Shown: one piece after another, positions 3,265 through 10,356 of the stretch | Position numbering within the stretch: the stretch's first letter is position 1 | How the letters are laid out: each line of letters begins with the position of its first letter | Virus record (IMG/VR): IMGVR_UViG_3300025101_000245 | Span: 1-20,785 of that record | DNA length: 20,785 bases | Source of the DNA: a virus | Strand: one strand, 5' to 3' | Program-made: the position numbers and the translations under genes | The notes under the pieces: model-generated | What the model was told of the DNA's origin: nothing | The model's database searches: none | What the model saw: the letters and a program-made list of their open reading frames with translations, nothing else

Positions 3265-4698
3265 ATGCAAGCCCCTATTAATCAGGAAGCTCTGCAAGAA
3301 AAGTGGGCACCACTACTCGACTACGAAGGTCTTGATCCAATCAAAGACAATCACAAGAGAATGGTGACTGCAGTTCTTCTAGAGAACCAAGAACAAACTA
3401 TGCGTGAAGAACGCGAGTTTTTAACTGAGCAACCAACAAACAGCACAGGTTCATCAGGTGCAACTGCTGGTTTCTCTGCTGGTGCTACAGCTGGTGGCCC
3501 AGTCGCTGGTTTCGACCCAGTATTAATCAGTCTTATTAGACGTTCAATGCCTAACTTGGTCGCTTATGACCTAGCAGGTGTTCAACCAATGAACGGCCCA
3601 ACAGGACTTATCTTCGCAATGAGAAGTCGCTTCACTTCACAGACTGGAACAGAAGCACTATTCAACGAACCAGATTCAGCATTCTCCGCACAGGATGATG
3701 GACGTAATCTTGTTTCTAATGGATACACTCAGAACGAAGGTTCAACAACAGGTGGAGCAGTTGGTTTCGGTACAACCGCAGCACAGGCAGGATCTAACCC
3801 TGCAGCATTGAACCCAGAAGGTTCACAGGCATCTACCACATATACAACTGGTAGAGGTTTCAACACTGAAGATTCTGAAGCATTAGGATCTGAGGCAGGA
3901 GATCAGTTCAACCAGATGGCATTCTCAATCGAGAAAGTCACTGTAACAGCAAAAACCAGAGCACTAAAGGCAGAGTACAGTTTAGAACTTGCTCAAGACC
4001 TTAAGGCAATCCACGGTTTAAACGCTGAGGCTGAGTTAGCAAATATTCTCTCAACAGAGATTCTTGCTGAGATAAACAGAGAAGTTATCAGATCAATCTA
4101 CAAGGTTGCTGAATCTGGAGCACAAACAAACACAGCAACTGCTGGTGCGTTTGACCTAGACACAGACAGTAACGGAAGATGGTCTGTTGAGAAGTTCAAA
4201 GGTTTGATCTTCCAAATCGAGAGAGATGCTAACGCTATCGCACAAAGAACTCGTAGAGGAAAGGGCAACATGATCCTTTGTTCTGCTGACGTTGCTTCTG
4301 CATTAACAATGGCTGGTGTACTTGATTACACTCCTGCACTTAATGCAAACTTAAACGTAGATGACACAGGCAACACATTTGCTGGTGTTCTTCAAGGTAA
4401 GTATAGAGTTTACATCGACCCATTCGCTGCAAACTTAGCTGCTGACCAGTACTACGTTGTAGGTTATAAAGGTACTTCACCTTATGACGCTGGATTATTC
4501 TATTGCCCATACGTTCCACTACAGATGGTTCGTGCAGTTGGTCAGGATACATTCCAACCAAAAATTGGCTTTAAGACAAGATACGGAATGGTTGCAAACC
4601 CATTCGCTGAAGGAGATGTTTCTTCACAAGGTCTTGGTCGTCTTGCTGTTAACAAAAACCGTTACTACAGAAGAGTTAAAGTTCAAAACCTTATGTAA
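3265..4698 (+). CDS. 23: Major capsid protein gp23
   Basis: A 477-aa protein, close to cyanophage gp23 and somewhat shorter than T4 gp23 (521 aa). Recognisable blocks are VLISLIRRSMPNLVAYDLAGVQPMNGPTGLIFAMRSRF (about residues 86-123), GRGFNTEDSEALGSE and the C-terminal FKTRYGMVANPFAEG. The N-terminal delta region ends in FLTE at residues 52-55. This matches the gp21 (L/I)-X-E cleavage rule and predicts a mature protein starting at Gln56. Gly/Ala/Thr-rich sequence follows (SSGATAGFSAGATAGG). It forms the hexamers of the capsid. A late promoter and GAGGT ribosome binding site precede it, and a strong intrinsic terminator follows 19 nt after the stop. Confidence 0.97.
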   Translation: MQAPINQEALQEKWAPLLDYEGLDPIKDNHKRMVTAVLLENQEQTMREEREFLTEQPTNSTGSSGATAGFSAGATAGGPVAGFDPVLISLIRRSMPNLVAYDLAGVQPMNGPTGLIFAMRSRFTSQTGTEALFNEPDSAFSAQDDGRNLVSNGYTQNEGSTTGGAVGFGTTAAQAGSNPAALNPEGSQASTTYTTGRGFNTEDSEALGSEAGDQFNQMAFSIEKVTVTAKTRALKAEYSLELAQDLKAIHGLNAEAELANILSTEILAEINREVIRSIYKVAESGAQTNTATAGAFDLDTDSNGRWSVEKFKGLIFQIERDANAIAQRTRRGKGNMILCSADVASALTMAGVLDYTPALNANLNVDDTGNTFAGVLQGKYRVYIDPFAANLAADQYYVVGYKGTSPYDAGLFYCPYVPLQMVRAVGQDTFQPKIGFKTRYGMVANPFAEGDVSSQGLGRLAVNKNRYYRRVKVQNLM

Positions 4699-4717
4699 AT
4701 CTCTTTACATATTTTTC

Positions 4718-4747
4718 AAAGAGACCCTTGATGGGTCTCTTTTTTTT
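4718..4747 (+). terminator. Intrinsic terminator after gene 23
   Basis: A perfect 10-bp stem (AAAGAGACCC at 4718-4727 with GGGTCTCTTT at 4733-4742) closes a 5-nt loop, and a run of T continues to 4747. It ends the head morphogenesis block. Confidence 0.93.
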
Positions 4748-4763
4748 ATGCTATATAACTATT

Positions 4764-5024
4764 ATGCTTATCTTTTCCTTTATACTTTCATTATTTGCAA
4801 ATCATTTACCAGTGATGTATGTCCAAGTGCCTCAATGGGCAGATGATTGGGCTGTATGTGCTGTAGATGTACCCGACGCAAAATGCCATTGGTATGTTAT
4901 GTCTCCTGACAATACATTTGGTGAAGGATTCGACTGGGAAGATGCACCTTGGTTTGATGCAAACGGATTAAATGATATTGCACCTATGCAAGCAAAGACA
5001 GTTGTTGAGAAATTACAAGAGTAG
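4764..5024 (+). CDS. Small exported or membrane-anchored protein, unknown
   Basis: An 86-aa protein starting MLIFSFILSLFANH, a short hydrophobic N-terminus that looks like a signal anchor or signal peptide. The rest is soluble and aromatic-rich with two Cys (WADDWAVCAVDVPDAKCHWY) and a DWEDAPWFDANGLND segment. I do not recognise the family. The frame is open further upstream, but only through the gp23 terminator hairpin. I therefore chose the ATG at 4764, the first ATG after the terminator in this frame. It needs its own promoter; the AT-rich CTATATAAC just upstream (4751-4759) is the only candidate and is weak. Confidence 0.6.
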   Translation: MLIFSFILSLFANHLPVMYVQVPQWADDWAVCAVDVPDAKCHWYVMSPDNTFGEGFDWEDAPWFDANGLNDIAPMQAKTVVEKLQE

Positions 5025-5731: not shown

Positions 5732-5890
5732 ATGAACCCATCACCACGCCAAGTTAAAAAGGCAAAGAAGATTTACGAAGAACTTGTAAATCATTTAATT
5801 GAAGAAGGTTATGCGTCTACCAAGGCTGATGCTGATAATGTCATCAGTGGTATGAGTGAAGAATGGTTTAACATGATTGTCAATGACTAA
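5732..5890 (+). CDS. Small helical protein, unknown (52 aa)
   Basis: The frame from ATG 5732 to TAA 5888-5890 encodes a 52-aa charged, helix-forming protein: MNPSPRQVKKAKKIYEELVN followed by HLIEEGYASTKADADNVISG and MSEEWFNMIVND. The pattern (two amphipathic helices, an acidic end in EEWF) is a real-protein composition, and similar small proteins (xxEEWFxMIxxD) are known to me from other marine myoviruses without a function. Its last 8 bases overlap the ATG of the next gene (ATGACTAA), a typical coupled junction. Confidence 0.65.
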   Translation: MNPSPRQVKKAKKIYEELVNHLIEEGYASTKADADNVISGMSEEWFNMIVND

Positions 5891-6182
5891 AGATTTTTCT
5901 CAATTTATTGAAGAGTCACAATCTCCAAAATGCCCAAAAGGTCATAGGTTTGATACAAAACTTAAGAGTTGTGTTCCAACAAAACGCTATCCGTACTATC
6001 CTTATGGTATGATCGGTAGAAATAGGGAGGAGCCTAAAAATGGGAATGGAAATGGAAATGGGAATGGAAATGGCAACGGTAATGGTAACGGTTCTGGTAA
6101 CGGTAATGGTTCTAACGGGCATTCTGGTGGGAATGGTGGTGGAGCTTCGGGCGGAAACGGTGGAGGAGGTGGAGGAGAATGA
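5883..6182 (+). CDS. Candidate internal head protein with capsid-targeting-like N-terminus and Gly/Asn repeat tail
   Basis: A 99-aa protein from ATG 5883; a TTG two codons upstream is less likely. Residues 1-12 (MTKDFSQFIEES) align with the T4 internal-protein capsid targeting sequence MKTYQEFIAE and include a gp21-type cleavage site I-x-E after residue 11. Residues 17-30 form CPKGHRFDTKLKSC, a Cys pair around a turn, then VPTKRYPYYPYG. From about residue 53 the protein is a disordered NG-repeat that turns into SGGNGGG. It overlaps its neighbours on both sides by 4-8 nt. From family knowledge, such N-termini route proteins into the prohead core; packaging of this one is inference. Confidence 0.72.
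   Translation: MTKDFSQFIEESQSPKCPKGHRFDTKLKSCVPTKRYPYYPYGMIGRNREEPKNGNGNGNGNGNGNGNGNGSGNGNGSNGHSGGNGGGASGGNGGGGGGE
6039..6117 (+). repeat. Hexanucleotide (GGNAAY) coding microsatellite
   Basis: Within the preceding gene, the DNA is a run of near-identical 6-mers (GGAAAT, GGGAAT, GGCAAC, GGTAAT, GGTAAC), each coding Asn-Gly. The 5' copies are the most uniform and the 3' copies carry synonymous changes and Ser insertions. This fits growth of the tail by slippage. Confidence 0.85.
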
Positions 6183-7047: not shown

Positions 7048-7472
7048 ATCTTGAGCAAATTCAGGAGATGTGGCAGAAAGATTCTGTCATTGATCCTGAT
7101 AACCTACATGATGAGTCACTTAAAATACCCCAACTTCACTCAAAATATTACACAGTATACAATACAATTACCTTGCTCAGAGAGAAAGCAAGAGAAACGT
7201 ATAGTCGTATTCGTTTAGAAAGACATAATTATTATACTGGGAAGGCCACAGCAGAAGTATATGCAGAAGATCCATTTCCCTATAAGGTTAGGGAGAAGGA
7301 TGCTATACAAAGGCATATGGACGCAGATGCGAAGTTAAATACCATTGATATGAAAATAAAGTATTATGATGTTATACTTAAATTTCTTGAAGAGATTATT
7401 CGCAATATATCAGGTCGTACATATCAAATCAAAAATGCCATCGAATGGCAGAAGTTTCAATCAGGATTTTAA
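7044..7472 (+). CDS. uvsY: Recombination mediator UvsY
   Basis: A 142-aa protein, similar in length to T4 UvsY (137 aa). It has the characteristic MNLEQIQEMWQKDSVIDPDN start and contains LHDESLKIPQLHSKYYTVYN and KYYDVILKFLEEIIRNISGR near the C-terminus. UvsY loads the UvsX recombinase on single-stranded DNA by displacing gp32, and it forms hexamers through C-terminal helices. It starts inside the preceding stop codon and shares TAATG with the deformylase start at 7472. UvsX itself is not in this window. Confidence 0.93.
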   Translation: MNLEQIQEMWQKDSVIDPDNLHDESLKIPQLHSKYYTVYNTITLLREKARETYSRIRLERHNYYTGKATAEVYAEDPFPYKVREKDAIQRHMDADAKLNTIDMKIKYYDVILKFLEEIIRNISGRTYQIKNAIEWQKFQSGF

Positions 7473-7909
7473 TGATTAAAGAACTAATAAAACCAGAGCA
7501 TCAATTATTTCATCATCGTATCAACTCGTGTAGTTATGATTTAGATCGTCATGCTCTATCTGAAATACTAATTGAAAATATGATTCATTATGAAGGTATA
7601 GGTCTTTCTGCAAATCAAATCGGTATTTGGGAAAGAGCATTTTGTATGATGTCTGATATTGAAACAGAAGAGATAATTACTTGCTTTAATCCAAAAATTA
7701 TTAAGACATATGGAGAATCAACTTGGTTTGAAGAAGGGTGTTTATCCTTTCCAGATCAGACCATAAACGTTTGTAGGCCAACTAAGATTGTTGTGAAATA
7801 TGAAGATGTTGATAAGAAAGTTCACAAAGAAAAGTTAGAAGGGATCATTTCGAGAGTGTTTCAGCACGAACATGACCATATGGAAGGTATAGATTTCACA
7901 CAAAGATAA
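7472..7909 (+). CDS. def: Peptide deformylase
   Basis: A 145-aa metalloenzyme that removes the N-terminal formyl group from nascent proteins. All three family motifs are present: GIGLSANQ (residues 42-49), EEGCLS with metal-ligand Cys90 (87-92), and QHEHDH (131-136) with His132, catalytic Glu133 and His136. Phage deformylases are short, often lacking the C-terminal helix, and this one ends right after motif 3. I chose the ATG at 7472 (TAATG with the uvsY stop) over the in-frame ATG at 7445, which would overlap uvsY by 28 nt. In cyanophages deformylase is thought to help photosystem protein turnover during infection. Confidence 0.95.
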   Translation: MIKELIKPEHQLFHHRINSCSYDLDRHALSEILIENMIHYEGIGLSANQIGIWERAFCMMSDIETEEIITCFNPKIIKTYGESTWFEEGCLSFPDQTINVCRPTKIVVKYEDVDKKVHKEKLEGIISRVFQHEHDHMEGIDFTQR

Positions 7910-7920
7910 ATAAATGTTTA

Positions 7921-8006
7921 CTGTGAGGGAAGGAGTCGAACCTTCAAGTCCCGCCAGAGACATCAGTTAAACAGACTGACACGTTTACCAGTTTCGTCAC
8001 CTCACA
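7921..8006 (-). tRNA. tRNA with anticodon GTT (Asn) and long variable arm
   Basis: On the minus strand, 8006 down to 7922 folds as a full cloverleaf. The acceptor is TGTGAGG with CCTCACA (7 bp), the D-stem is ACG/CGT with loop AAACTGGTAAA, and the anticodon stem is TCAGT/ACTGA around loop CTGTTTA (anticodon GTT at 7970-7972). A 17-nt variable region contains a 5-bp stem GTCTC/GGGAC. The T-stem is GAAGG/CCTTC with loop TTCGACT. The next base (7921) gives discriminator G. U1-A72, G73 and GUU agree with bacterial tRNA-Asn. The long variable arm and Leu-like D-arm belong to class II tRNAs (Leu, Ser, Tyr), and U at position 37 is unusual. CCA is not encoded. Confidence 0.85.
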
Positions 8007-8015
8007 ATGGGATCC

Positions 8016-8813
8016 CTAGTCAGGGATCGCTTGCATAATACGTGTTACACCGATTCCTCCACCACTTCTAGGAAAGAAATCGAACTCTAAGAACTCTTCA
8101 AGTTCTTTCTCAACTCTTTCCTTACCAAATAATTTGTAGAGTAAGTTAGCATATCCACCATCAGAGATGGTATGGAACGTATCACGCATTTGTTCTTTAT
8201 CAGTACTACGTTCTGCACTACCAATCGTTTCCATACCATTTAAGATCACATCAATCTTTCGACTAGTCTTACCATCGTCGTTTCTCGACATATTCCAGAA
8301 AGGTGATGTAAATTCTGGGAAGTCAGTAATCATACCATATTCAATTTTTGCTTCGTGATCATGGTCTAATTCTTTTGTATTGAACATATTTCCCCAATCA
8401 TCATAGGTTTCAATTGACAAGTCAGGTAATCCAAGATACTTGCATAATTCAATCTCCATCTTTTTAAGTTCTTCAACACCACCGTGCATCTCAAATTCAA
8501 ACATTGGGAAGATAACTTCATGTCTACCTGCAACTGGATTTGGTTCTTGCCGATATGATGTTGAGACACAGAAAAATCCCGGTGCTTCTGGATTCTTCAG
8601 TAATTCATATTCTAACCACATCTGCCCTGTCTGAGGCAGTGGCCATATCTCACCATTGTAAGTGTATGTTGCAACTGTTTCCGGATCTTCACATGCTGCA
8701 AGGATGCTTAAACGGTTTTGAGTGTGGACTTCGTAAAAACCTTTAGACAAAAAAAATGACCTTAATAGGTCAACTGTCTTCGTATACTTTTTTGGGTCAA
8801 TCAAGCTTGTCAT
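8016..8813 (-). CDS. AsnRS-like class II aminoacyl-tRNA synthetase catalytic core (no anticodon-binding domain)
   Basis: A 265-aa minus-strand protein. Residues 18-40 (RSFFLSKGFYEVHTQNRLSI...) resemble class II motif 1. PLPQTGQMWLEYELL (58-72) parallels the AsnRS Q-S-G-Q-L-x-LE segment. SYRQEPNPVAGRHEVIFPMF (86-105) and following FEFEM (105-109) is motif 2, with R88-x-E90 and R97-H98. DVILNGMETIGSAERS (188-203) matches the class IIb active site. SGGGIGVTRIMQAI (250-263) is motif 3 with Arg258, although Thr replaces the usual Glu before Arg. The N-terminal OB-fold of AsnRS, AspRS and LysRS (about 100 residues) is absent. It may charge the tRNA encoded 9 nt downstream, make asparagine like archaeal AS-AR or bacterial AsnA, or modify another molecule. 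Confidence 0.8.
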   Translation of the reverse strand: MTSLIDPKKYTKTVDLLRSFFLSKGFYEVHTQNRLSILAACEDPETVATYTYNGEIWPLPQTGQMWLEYELLKNPEAPGFFCVSTSYRQEPNPVAGRHEVIFPMFEFEMHGGVEELKKMEIELCKYLGLPDLSIETYDDWGNMFNTKELDHDHEAKIEYGMITDFPEFTSPFWNMSRNDDGKTSRKIDVILNGMETIGSAERSTDKEQMRDTFHTISDGGYANLLYKLFGKERVEKELEEFLEFDFFPRSGGGIGVTRIMQAIPD

Positions 8814-8892: not shown

Positions 8893-10356
8893 ATGTCTCA
8901 TTTGAGCATATCAAAAAAGAATGAGGTTTATCTTCAAGTAGAATCAGATCCACATGTGTATTATGAACTGTCAGATCAGTTCACCTTTGAGATTCCGGGA
9001 GCTAAATTTATGCCTCAATACCGTAATAAGTATTGGGATGGTAAGATCCGTCTATTCAACGTAAAGAACGGAGAAATCTACGTTGGACTACTGGATAAGA
9101 TACAAAAGTTTTGTGACGATCACGAATATACTTACGAGTTTGTAGATAATAAATTTTTTGGCACACCTTTTGAAGTCAATGAGAATATCTCATATGAAGG
9201 TGTTAAAGACTATATGACATCTATAAGTAAGTATTCTCCCCGTGAGTATCAAGTTGAGGGAGTATCCGACGCTTTAAAACATAATAGAAGGTTGTTGATA
9301 TCCCCAACTGCATCGGGTAAGTCTCTGATGATATACGCGATTGTGAGATATTTTGTTGAAAGGCAGCAAAATACTCTGATAGTTGTTCCGACGACTTCCC
9401 TAGTAGAACAGATGTATAAAGATTTCGCAGATTATGGATGGGATGTAGGTTCATTTTGCCACAAGATATATGCAGGTAAAGAAAGAGAGACAGACTCTCA
9501 AGTCATCATTACTACTTGGCAATCAATCTACAAACTCCCCAGAAAATATTTTGAGAGATTCTCTGTTGTAATTGGGGATGAGGCTCACCAATTTAAATCA
9601 AAATCACTTATATCTATAATGACAAAACTTCACAAGGCCAAATATCGTTTTGGTTTTACAGGAACTCTTGATGGAACACAAACCCACAAGTGGGTTTTGG
9701 AAGGATTGTTTGGCCCTTCATATAAAATTATTAAGACAGATGAACTAATGAAGAAGGGTCATGTTGCAAAACTTGACATAAATGTCCTTCTACTCAAGCA
9801 TCCTGCAACAAAGTTTGAAACATTTGAAGATGAAGTTCAGTATATAATCAATCACGATAAGAGAAATAAGTTCATTCGTAACCTAGCACTTGACCTCAAA
9901 GGAAATACTTTAATACTCTATTCAAGAGTCGAAACTCACGGAAGGGTCTTGTATGATATGATAAATAATAATGTACTAGAACAACGCGAAGTCTTCTTTG
10001 TACATGGAGGTGTAGCAGCAGAAGATCGGGAGAACGTAAGAGAAATCACTGAAAAGGAAGACAACGCTATTATCATTGCATCTTATGGGACTTTCTCCAC
10101 GGGAATTAACATTAAAAATCTTCATAACGTCATTTTTGCATCACCATCTAAATCTCGAATTCGGAATCTACAATCTATAGGTAGAGTTCTCCGTAAGGGA
10201 AGTAACAAAACAAAAGCAACACTTTATGACATAGCTGACGATATTTCCTATAAAACCAGAAGAAACTACACTTTGAATCATCTTGTAGAAAGAATCAAGA
10301 TCTATAACGAAGAAAACTTTAATTATGACATCATCTCAATTCCACTCAAAAAATAA
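8893..10356 (+). CDS. uvsW: UvsW helicase (RNA-DNA and DNA-DNA)
   Basis: A 487-aa superfamily 2 helicase. Residues 114-127 (YSPREYQVEGVSDA) form a Q-like motif. SPTASGKS (137-144) is Walker A, VVPTTSL is motif Ia, and VVIGDEAH is motif II with DEAH at 229-232. GFTGTLDGT is motif III, and SIGRVLRKG near the C-terminus is motif VI. T4 UvsW (587 aa) unwinds R-loops, regresses forks and branch-migrates Holliday junctions, which shuts origin replication and favours recombination-dependent replication. The N-terminal 1-110 region (VYYELSDQFTFEIPGAKFMP, YWDGKIRLF) matches the UvsW-specific domain. The TAA stop is followed one base later by the next ATG. Confidence 0.95.
   Translation: MSHLSISKKNEVYLQVESDPHVYYELSDQFTFEIPGAKFMPQYRNKYWDGKIRLFNVKNGEIYVGLLDKIQKFCDDHEYTYEFVDNKFFGTPFEVNENISYEGVKDYMTSISKYSPREYQVEGVSDALKHNRRLLISPTASGKSLMIYAIVRYFVERQQNTLIVVPTTSLVEQMYKDFADYGWDVGSFCHKIYAGKERETDSQVIITTWQSIYKLPRKYFERFSVVIGDEAHQFKSKSLISIMTKLHKAKYRFGFTGTLDGTQTHKWVLEGLFGPSYKIIKTDELMKKGHVAKLDINVLLLKHPATKFETFEDEVQYIINHDKRNKFIRNLALDLKGNTLILYSRVETHGRVLYDMINNNVLEQREVFFVHGGVAAEDRENVREITEKEDNAIIIASYGTFSTGINIKNLHNVIFASPSKSRIRNLQSIGRVLRKGSNKTKATLYDIADDISYKTRRNYTLNHLVERIKIYNEENFNYDIISIPLKK

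Follow-up and report, generated by a model that had tools for sequence, protein, structure and literature searches.

A synthetase-like enzyme gene linked to a long-armed asparagine-type tRNA in ocean phages: a possible pyrimidine-synthesis cassette

Asparaginyl-tRNA synthetase (AsnRS; TIGR00457, structure 1x54) is built around a class IIb core with a characteristic amino acid pocket and motifs 2 and 3, all of which recur in the phage enzyme described here; however, the latter is devoid of the OB anticodon-binding domain, carries an extra helical stretch before motif 3 and forms a separate clade. It is also a stand-alone class IIb core, as are AS-AR (PRK06462) and AsnA, which act on aspartate or asparagine, but it differs from them in score (22.6 vs. 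389 bits), in its AsnRS-like pocket and in gene context. In the pylS-pylT system, the gene of the PylRS core adjoins the gene of its own odd tRNA-Pyl, an arrangement resembling the phage one, although the phage enzyme is not a PylRS homolog, its tRNA has a sense anticodon (GUU) and a Leu-like body with a long arm, and it has tRNA-free cellular relatives. Class II paralogs in biosynthetic operons are a known precedent, and HisZ and EpmA are class II cores reused in metabolism or protein modification; EpmA is placed on another branch of the tree, and neither of them shares the pyrimidine context. The CarAB-PyrB-PyrC route, which leads to dihydroorotate and is seemingly replaced in several enzyme-bearing genomes, employs carbamoyl phosphate and aspartate and proteins of unrelated folds. 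Because none of the families and systems tested has its features, the anatomy of the cassette is considered new, and literature searches of open papers revealed no description of it, nor of any enzyme resembling a synthetase within pyrimidine operons.

The locus and its synthetase-like enzyme

The window, i.e., the whole analyzed stretch of viral DNA (20,785 bases), carries T4-like genes (for a major head protein, UvsY, deformylase and UvsW), as indicated by PHROGs and the gene calls. Between the deformylase (7445-7909) and uvsW (8893-10356) genes, both located on the plus strand, there are two minus-strand genes: an ORF encoding a 265-aa class IIb synthetase core (8016-8813), assigned to phrog_29758 (function unknown), and, downstream of it, a type II tRNA gene with the anticodon GUU and no encoded CCA (7921-8006, ARAGORN and Rfam). 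The tRNA was called by ARAGORN at 7920-8007 (anticodon GTT), it matched the Rfam tRNA model at 7921-8006 with 50.9 bits, and the gap separating it from the ORF is 9 nt (8007-8015). The initial annotation had described the 265-aa ORF and the GTT tRNA 9 nt apart correctly, coordinates included, and its observation that the pair is antisense to deformylase and uvsW is borne out by the gene calls. A scan with PADLOC gave no match, and the reading of the ORF as a defence gene was rejected.

In the Pfam search, PF00152 (class II D/K/N synthetases) was the sole match of the enzyme (57 bits, cut-off 25), with no match to AsnA. The NCBIfam models were matched far below their curated cut-offs, i.e., AspRS with 28 bits (353 needed), AS-AR (NF005055) with 22.6 (389), AsnRS (asnS, TIGR00457) with 20.1 (342.6) and EpmA with 19 (264), and 63 members of the family gave the same weak, mixed matches. 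An anticodon-binding domain corresponding to the N-terminal OB domain of AsnRS was found neither in the ORF and its Pfam matches nor in the AF2 model (pLDDT 93, pTM 0.90), and the protein consists of the core only. The solved folds closest to this model are those of AspRS and AsnRS, e.g., P. horikoshii AsnRS (1x54; TM-score of 0.79 over the query). In the tree, the family occupies a single long branch apart from AsnRS, AspRS, LysRS and EpmA, which makes it a deeply branching class IIb clade without a name, distinct from these four. Membership in AsnRS, AspRS, AS-AR or EpmA was rejected on the grounds of the tree position and the large shortfalls below the cut-offs. The class II assignment of the initial annotation is confirmed by PF00152, by the predicted structure and by its AspRS/AsnRS matches; the proximity to AsnRS that it proposed is strongly supported by the fold and the active-site residues.

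The QTGQMWLE block (residues 61-68, codons at 8610-8633 on the minus strand) aligns with TVSGQLxxE of the AsnRS amino acid pocket and has no lysine as in QSPQLxK of AspRS; in other words, the enzyme carries the TGQ..E element of AsnRS and not the QSPQ..K element of AspRS. Its residues Q61, T62, Q64, L67 and E68 are invariant in the family alignments. The enzyme also retains the arginine and glutamate of motif 2, the Glu/Asp ligands of the metal, R202 for binding of the side chain and the arginine of motif 3; these residues are invariant or nearly invariant in the family and presumably play the roles generally known for class IIb enzymes. By its aligned residues, the pocket is of the AsnRS type and not an Asp-binding one. 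Within motif 3 (GGGIGVTRI, residues 251-259, codons at 8037-8063 on the minus strand), R258 is invariant and Thr257 has a family-wide conservation of at least 90%. This threonine had been taken as a hint of altered chemistry, but it is a feature of the family rather than a peculiarity of the window phage.

Linkage and anatomy of the tRNA

The enzyme-based search of viral sequences indicated at least 599 loci, and the best 80 of them, close relatives of 78-100% identity, were kept. Four of these loci end too early, and in the others the tRNA, complete or cut by a contig end, was always present (76/76), usually about 14 nt downstream of the enzyme gene. Reciprocally, a search with the tRNA pattern found the enzyme upstream in 66/66 matches with enough sequence (14 others lie at contig edges), with no exceptions. 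The carriers are ocean viruses infecting Prochlorococcus and similar bacteria, among them P-SSM2, P-SSM5 and P-SSM7, in which the pair is annotated as a 'tRNA ligase' and tRNA-Asn. The neighbouring genes, as read from the sequences, vary (uvsW, major head protein, psbA, purM, deformylase), and since the linkage is total while the neighbourhoods differ, the sequence comparison indicates that the enzyme and the tRNA move as one unit. The total two-way linkage, together with the covariation of the tRNA described below, led to the rejection of a chance pairing, and it strongly supports, among the close relatives, the single-unit inference of the initial annotation. Whether homologs always adjoin this tRNA, which it had asked, has a divided answer, as homologs from huge phages (L004, L005, L087 and L088; 47-51% identical) and most cellular ones are devoid of it. 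In the tested cellular genomes and two huge phages, the model R1, built from 24 copies of the linked tRNA, found it in linked loci only, i.e., on four contigs among those from cellular genomes (L198, L199, L207 and L251).

In four loci (L009, L032, L033 and L043), an insertion of about 80 nt separates the enzyme stop codon from the tRNA; it contains an imperfect inverted repeat (AAAGATGGTC...GACCATCTTT) and may be a mobile or regulatory element. The 484-kb phage LR756508 (L299), which has an enzyme homolog without the linked tRNA, encodes a canonical tRNA-Asn with A37 (3336-3409).

The initial annotation overlooked two features of the tRNA: its body is of type II, resembling tRNA-Leu and bearing a long variable arm, and position 37 is occupied by a pyrimidine in all copies. 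On the minus strand of the window, the anticodon GUU is located at 7970-7972 (ARAGORN and stem geometry), U37 at 7969, and the variable arm GUCUC-UGGC-GGGAC, with a 5-bp stem, at 7948-7961; the variable region counts 17 nt in the window and up to 38 nt in relatives. The acceptor end comprises, by alignment, U1 (8006), A72 (7922) and G73 (7921). Outside the linked loci, the next-strongest matches of R1 in the tested genomes were, where typed, tRNA-Leu, for which reason the body is regarded as Leu-like. The A73 and the anticodon of tRNA-Leu are absent, G73 and GUU being found instead, and no copy has the short variable loop and purine 37 of ordinary tRNA-Asn. Among the 24 related tRNAs, 99.4% of the cloverleaf pair cells are standard and two-sided changes occur in 18 of the 22 cloverleaf pairs (125 cells vs. 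36 in shuffles), from which it follows, as judged from this covariation, that the fold is under selection.

In bacteria, charging with asparagine is determined by the anticodon and G73, and U1-A72 is a determinant of Asp-tRNA amidation (PMC9976931). The linked tRNA keeps these asparagine determinants, GUU, G73 and U1-A72, in the aligned copies; in the divergent copy L251, the end of the acceptor stem does not close. At position 37, there were 62 U and one C among 63 distinct copies called by ARAGORN, while the other tRNAs encoded at these loci carry a purine at this site, with the exception of two cases that are miscalled or odd. U33 is kept in most copies and replaced by C33 or A33 in a few. 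A pyrimidine at position 37, where t6A is otherwise formed, and C33 or A33 are unfavourable for reading codons starting with A. An anticodon shifted by one position was also considered, as ARAGORN called UUU or four-letter anticodons in a few copies, and rejected, as the stem geometry gives GUU in all of them.

Several irregularities concern other tRNA genes and annotations. In P-SSM2 (AY939844.2), tRNA-Asn is annotated at 5825-5910, about 2 kb away from the gene itself (ARAGORN, 3813-3900). As this displacement is identical to the difference in coordinates relative to GU071092, the annotation was apparently transferred without correction for it. P-SSM7 has a 73-nt tRNA-Leu(UAA) without the usual long Leu variable arm (2871-2943), and the 735-kb phage LR756501 (L298) has five tRNA-Leu genes in tandem (4301-4845), two of them short.

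Cellular relatives and the pyrimidine pathway

Screening of 84,980 species genomes revealed 105 relatives with identities of 50-70%, and 80 of their loci were kept. They come from Patescibacteria, Dependentiae, Proteobacteria, a Chlamydia and DPANN archaea. Only the four linked loci named above contain the tRNA, and a part of them probably belongs to viruses; in the tree, the tRNA-linked members group in one subclade with five unlinked ones. One virus-like contig (L202), assigned to an archaeal MAG by binning, encodes the enzyme but not the tRNA; ORFs resembling those of ribonucleotide reductase and primase, as read from the sequence, lie next to the enzyme gene.

In 23 of the 80 cellular loci, a gene of dihydroorotate dehydrogenase (DHODH), orotate phosphoribosyltransferase (OPRT) or orotidine monophosphate decarboxylase (OMPDC) is present within 5 kb, in several gene orders and several phyla; by a rough estimate from three target genes among about 1,500, one or two such loci would be expected by chance. 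About a dozen of them have the pyrimidine gene 20-140 nt downstream on the same strand, and Pfam confirms nine of the pyrimidine neighbours. The gene orders include enzyme/OMPDC/OPRT/DHODH/PRPP synthase in Bandiella (L232), pyrD (opposite strand)/enzyme/OMPDC/OPRT-like in Pasteurella atlantica, enzyme/OPRT/OMPDC in several Gammaproteobacteria and enzyme/fused OPRT-OMPDC/DHODH in Myxococcota. Two of the tRNA-linked contigs (L198 and L207) carry a nearby DHODH-like gene, that of L207 just below the Pfam cut-off, and one phage (L094) has the order enzyme-tRNA-(small ORF)-pyrE-purM. Most phage copies, including that of the window, lie beside structural or recombination genes, and neither DHODH nor OMPDC was found in P-SSM2 and P-SSM7.

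In 20 enzyme-bearing genomes, many of which are incomplete MAGs, PyrB and PyrC exceeded the curated cut-offs in one genome each and CarB in two, while OMPDC was present in 18 and DHODH in 16. The PyrB, PyrC and CarB models matched in all 14 control genomes, and some matches below the cut-offs remain in enzyme-bearing genomes (G004, G010, G015, G025 and G030). A sample of 380 Patescibacteria genomes contained seven carriers, with OMPDC in four and PyrB in one; among these few carriers, the enzyme had no clear association with the presence of OMPDC or the absence of PyrB. AsnRS is present in 9 and absent from 13 of 22 enzyme-bearing genomes, and the enzyme is thus not simply a substitute AsnRS.

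Possible functions of the pair

We tentatively favour the view that the pair is a two-part metabolic cassette, in which an asparagine-using enzyme of pyrimidine synthesis, which may form dihydroorotate without carbamoyl phosphate, is accompanied by a tRNA acting as a dedicated asparagine carrier. The fold, the active-site residues, the obligatory linkage, the build of the tRNA and the pyrimidine context of the relatives are observations; that the phage enzyme itself acts in pyrimidine synthesis, the reaction and the carrier function are inferred from them. The pyrimidine operons and the shortage of PyrB, PyrC and CarB in carrier genomes speak for this view; the phage copies beside structural or recombination genes, the lack of DHODH and OMPDC in P-SSM2 and P-SSM7 and the Patescibacteria sample speak against it. 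With a Leu-like long-arm body and a pyrimidine at position 37, this tRNA would be a poor translator. The anticodon GUU is kept although the enzyme has no standard anticodon domain to read it, which is compatible either with charging by the AsnRS of the host or with decoding; as pyrimidine 37 argues against efficient decoding, the carrier role is preferred, with modest confidence. The tRNA cannot be essential to the chemistry of the family, because most cellular homologs are without it.

The chemistry that we tentatively propose for such a cassette is as follows. The enzyme would bind asparagine in its AsnRS-like pocket, and the alpha-carboxyl group would be activated as Asn-AMP or be already active as a tRNA ester. 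Addition of CO2 to the amino group of asparagine would give an N-carboxyanhydride-like intermediate, the C2 of which would be attacked by the side-chain amide with closure of the ring. The product would be L-dihydroorotate (Asn + CO2 - H2O), so that carbamoyl phosphate, aspartate carbamoyltransferase and dihydroorotase would not be needed. The tRNA of the marine phages, with its asparagine charging determinants (GUU, G73, U1-A72), would hold the amino acid for the enzyme and not for the ribosome. The fullest version of this route, in which dihydroorotate is made from asparagine held on a non-decoding phage tRNA and the cellular relatives perform the same reaction with ordinary Asn-tRNA or free asparagine, is in our view unlikely. 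Comparable chemistry with CO2 and ATP is known from dethiobiotin synthetase, which turns a diamine and CO2 into a cyclic urea, and from TsaC, which forms threonylcarbamoyl-AMP; for the N-carboxyanhydride route, which is our own proposal, we know of no enzymatic precedent.

The strongest alternative, somewhat doubtful in our view, is an orthogonal charging pair, in which the enzyme would charge the phage tRNA with asparagine through recognition of the acceptor end and the variable arm, and the tRNA would read AAC/AAU in the infected cell, where its altered loop might protect it from anticodon nucleases of the host. It would account for the total linkage and joint movement of both genes, the AsnRS-like pocket, the invariant GUU and the U33 of most copies, and evasion of nucleases has been proposed for phage tRNAs with altered loops (PMC10264068). 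However, it leaves the pyrimidine operons and the tRNA-free cellular relatives unexplained, and the pyrimidine 37 of every copy and the C33/A33 variants are unfavourable for the A-starting codons to be read; ordinary tRNAs at the same loci have normal loops.

An asparagine synthetase of the AsnA/AS-AR type, activating the beta-carboxyl of aspartate for amidation with ammonia and supplying the tRNA with its product, is improbable. The weak AS-AR match and the core without an anticodon domain are consistent with it, and the motif-3 threonine resembles the serine of AsnA; against it stand the large distance to the AS-AR cut-off, the absent AsnA match in Pfam, the AsnRS-type rather than Asp-binding pocket, and the odd tRNA and pyrimidine operons, which it does not explain. 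Of the initial annotation's readings of the unit, its unity and its nearness to AsnRS hold, whereas neither a charging system nor an AsnA/AS-AR-like supplier is established, given the failed cut-offs, the pyrimidine 37 and the cellular relatives.

Even less probable is an ATP-dependent replacement of dihydroorotase, with the tRNA unrelated, in which the side-chain carboxyl of N-carbamoylaspartate would be adenylated and cyclised. The pyrimidine operons and PyrC scores below the cut-off in most carriers agree with it, but as PyrB and CarB are missing in most carriers too, its substrate would have no source, and the tRNA linkage is left unexplained. The least probable is a regulatory subunit, related to a pyrimidine enzyme as HisZ is to HisG and sensing an amino acid or charged tRNA, as the pyrimidine operons and the precedent of class II paralogs might suggest, since the full catalytic set, with the motif-2 and motif-3 arginines, is retained and the supposed partner enzymes are missing from most phages.

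If the preferred pyrimidine role is true, the enzyme would fill a gap visible in bacteria in which pyrD, pyrE and pyrF are present and carAB, pyrB and pyrC cannot be recognised. It would also represent a new chemical entry to one of the most conserved pathways known, and nucleotide synthesis would be shown to employ a tRNA as a carrier. Should the enzyme do no more than charge its tRNA, the cassette would still combine a compact synthetase with a long-armed asparagine tRNA in a natural pair common in ocean phages, of importance to phage biology and, in its own right, as an orthogonal pair.
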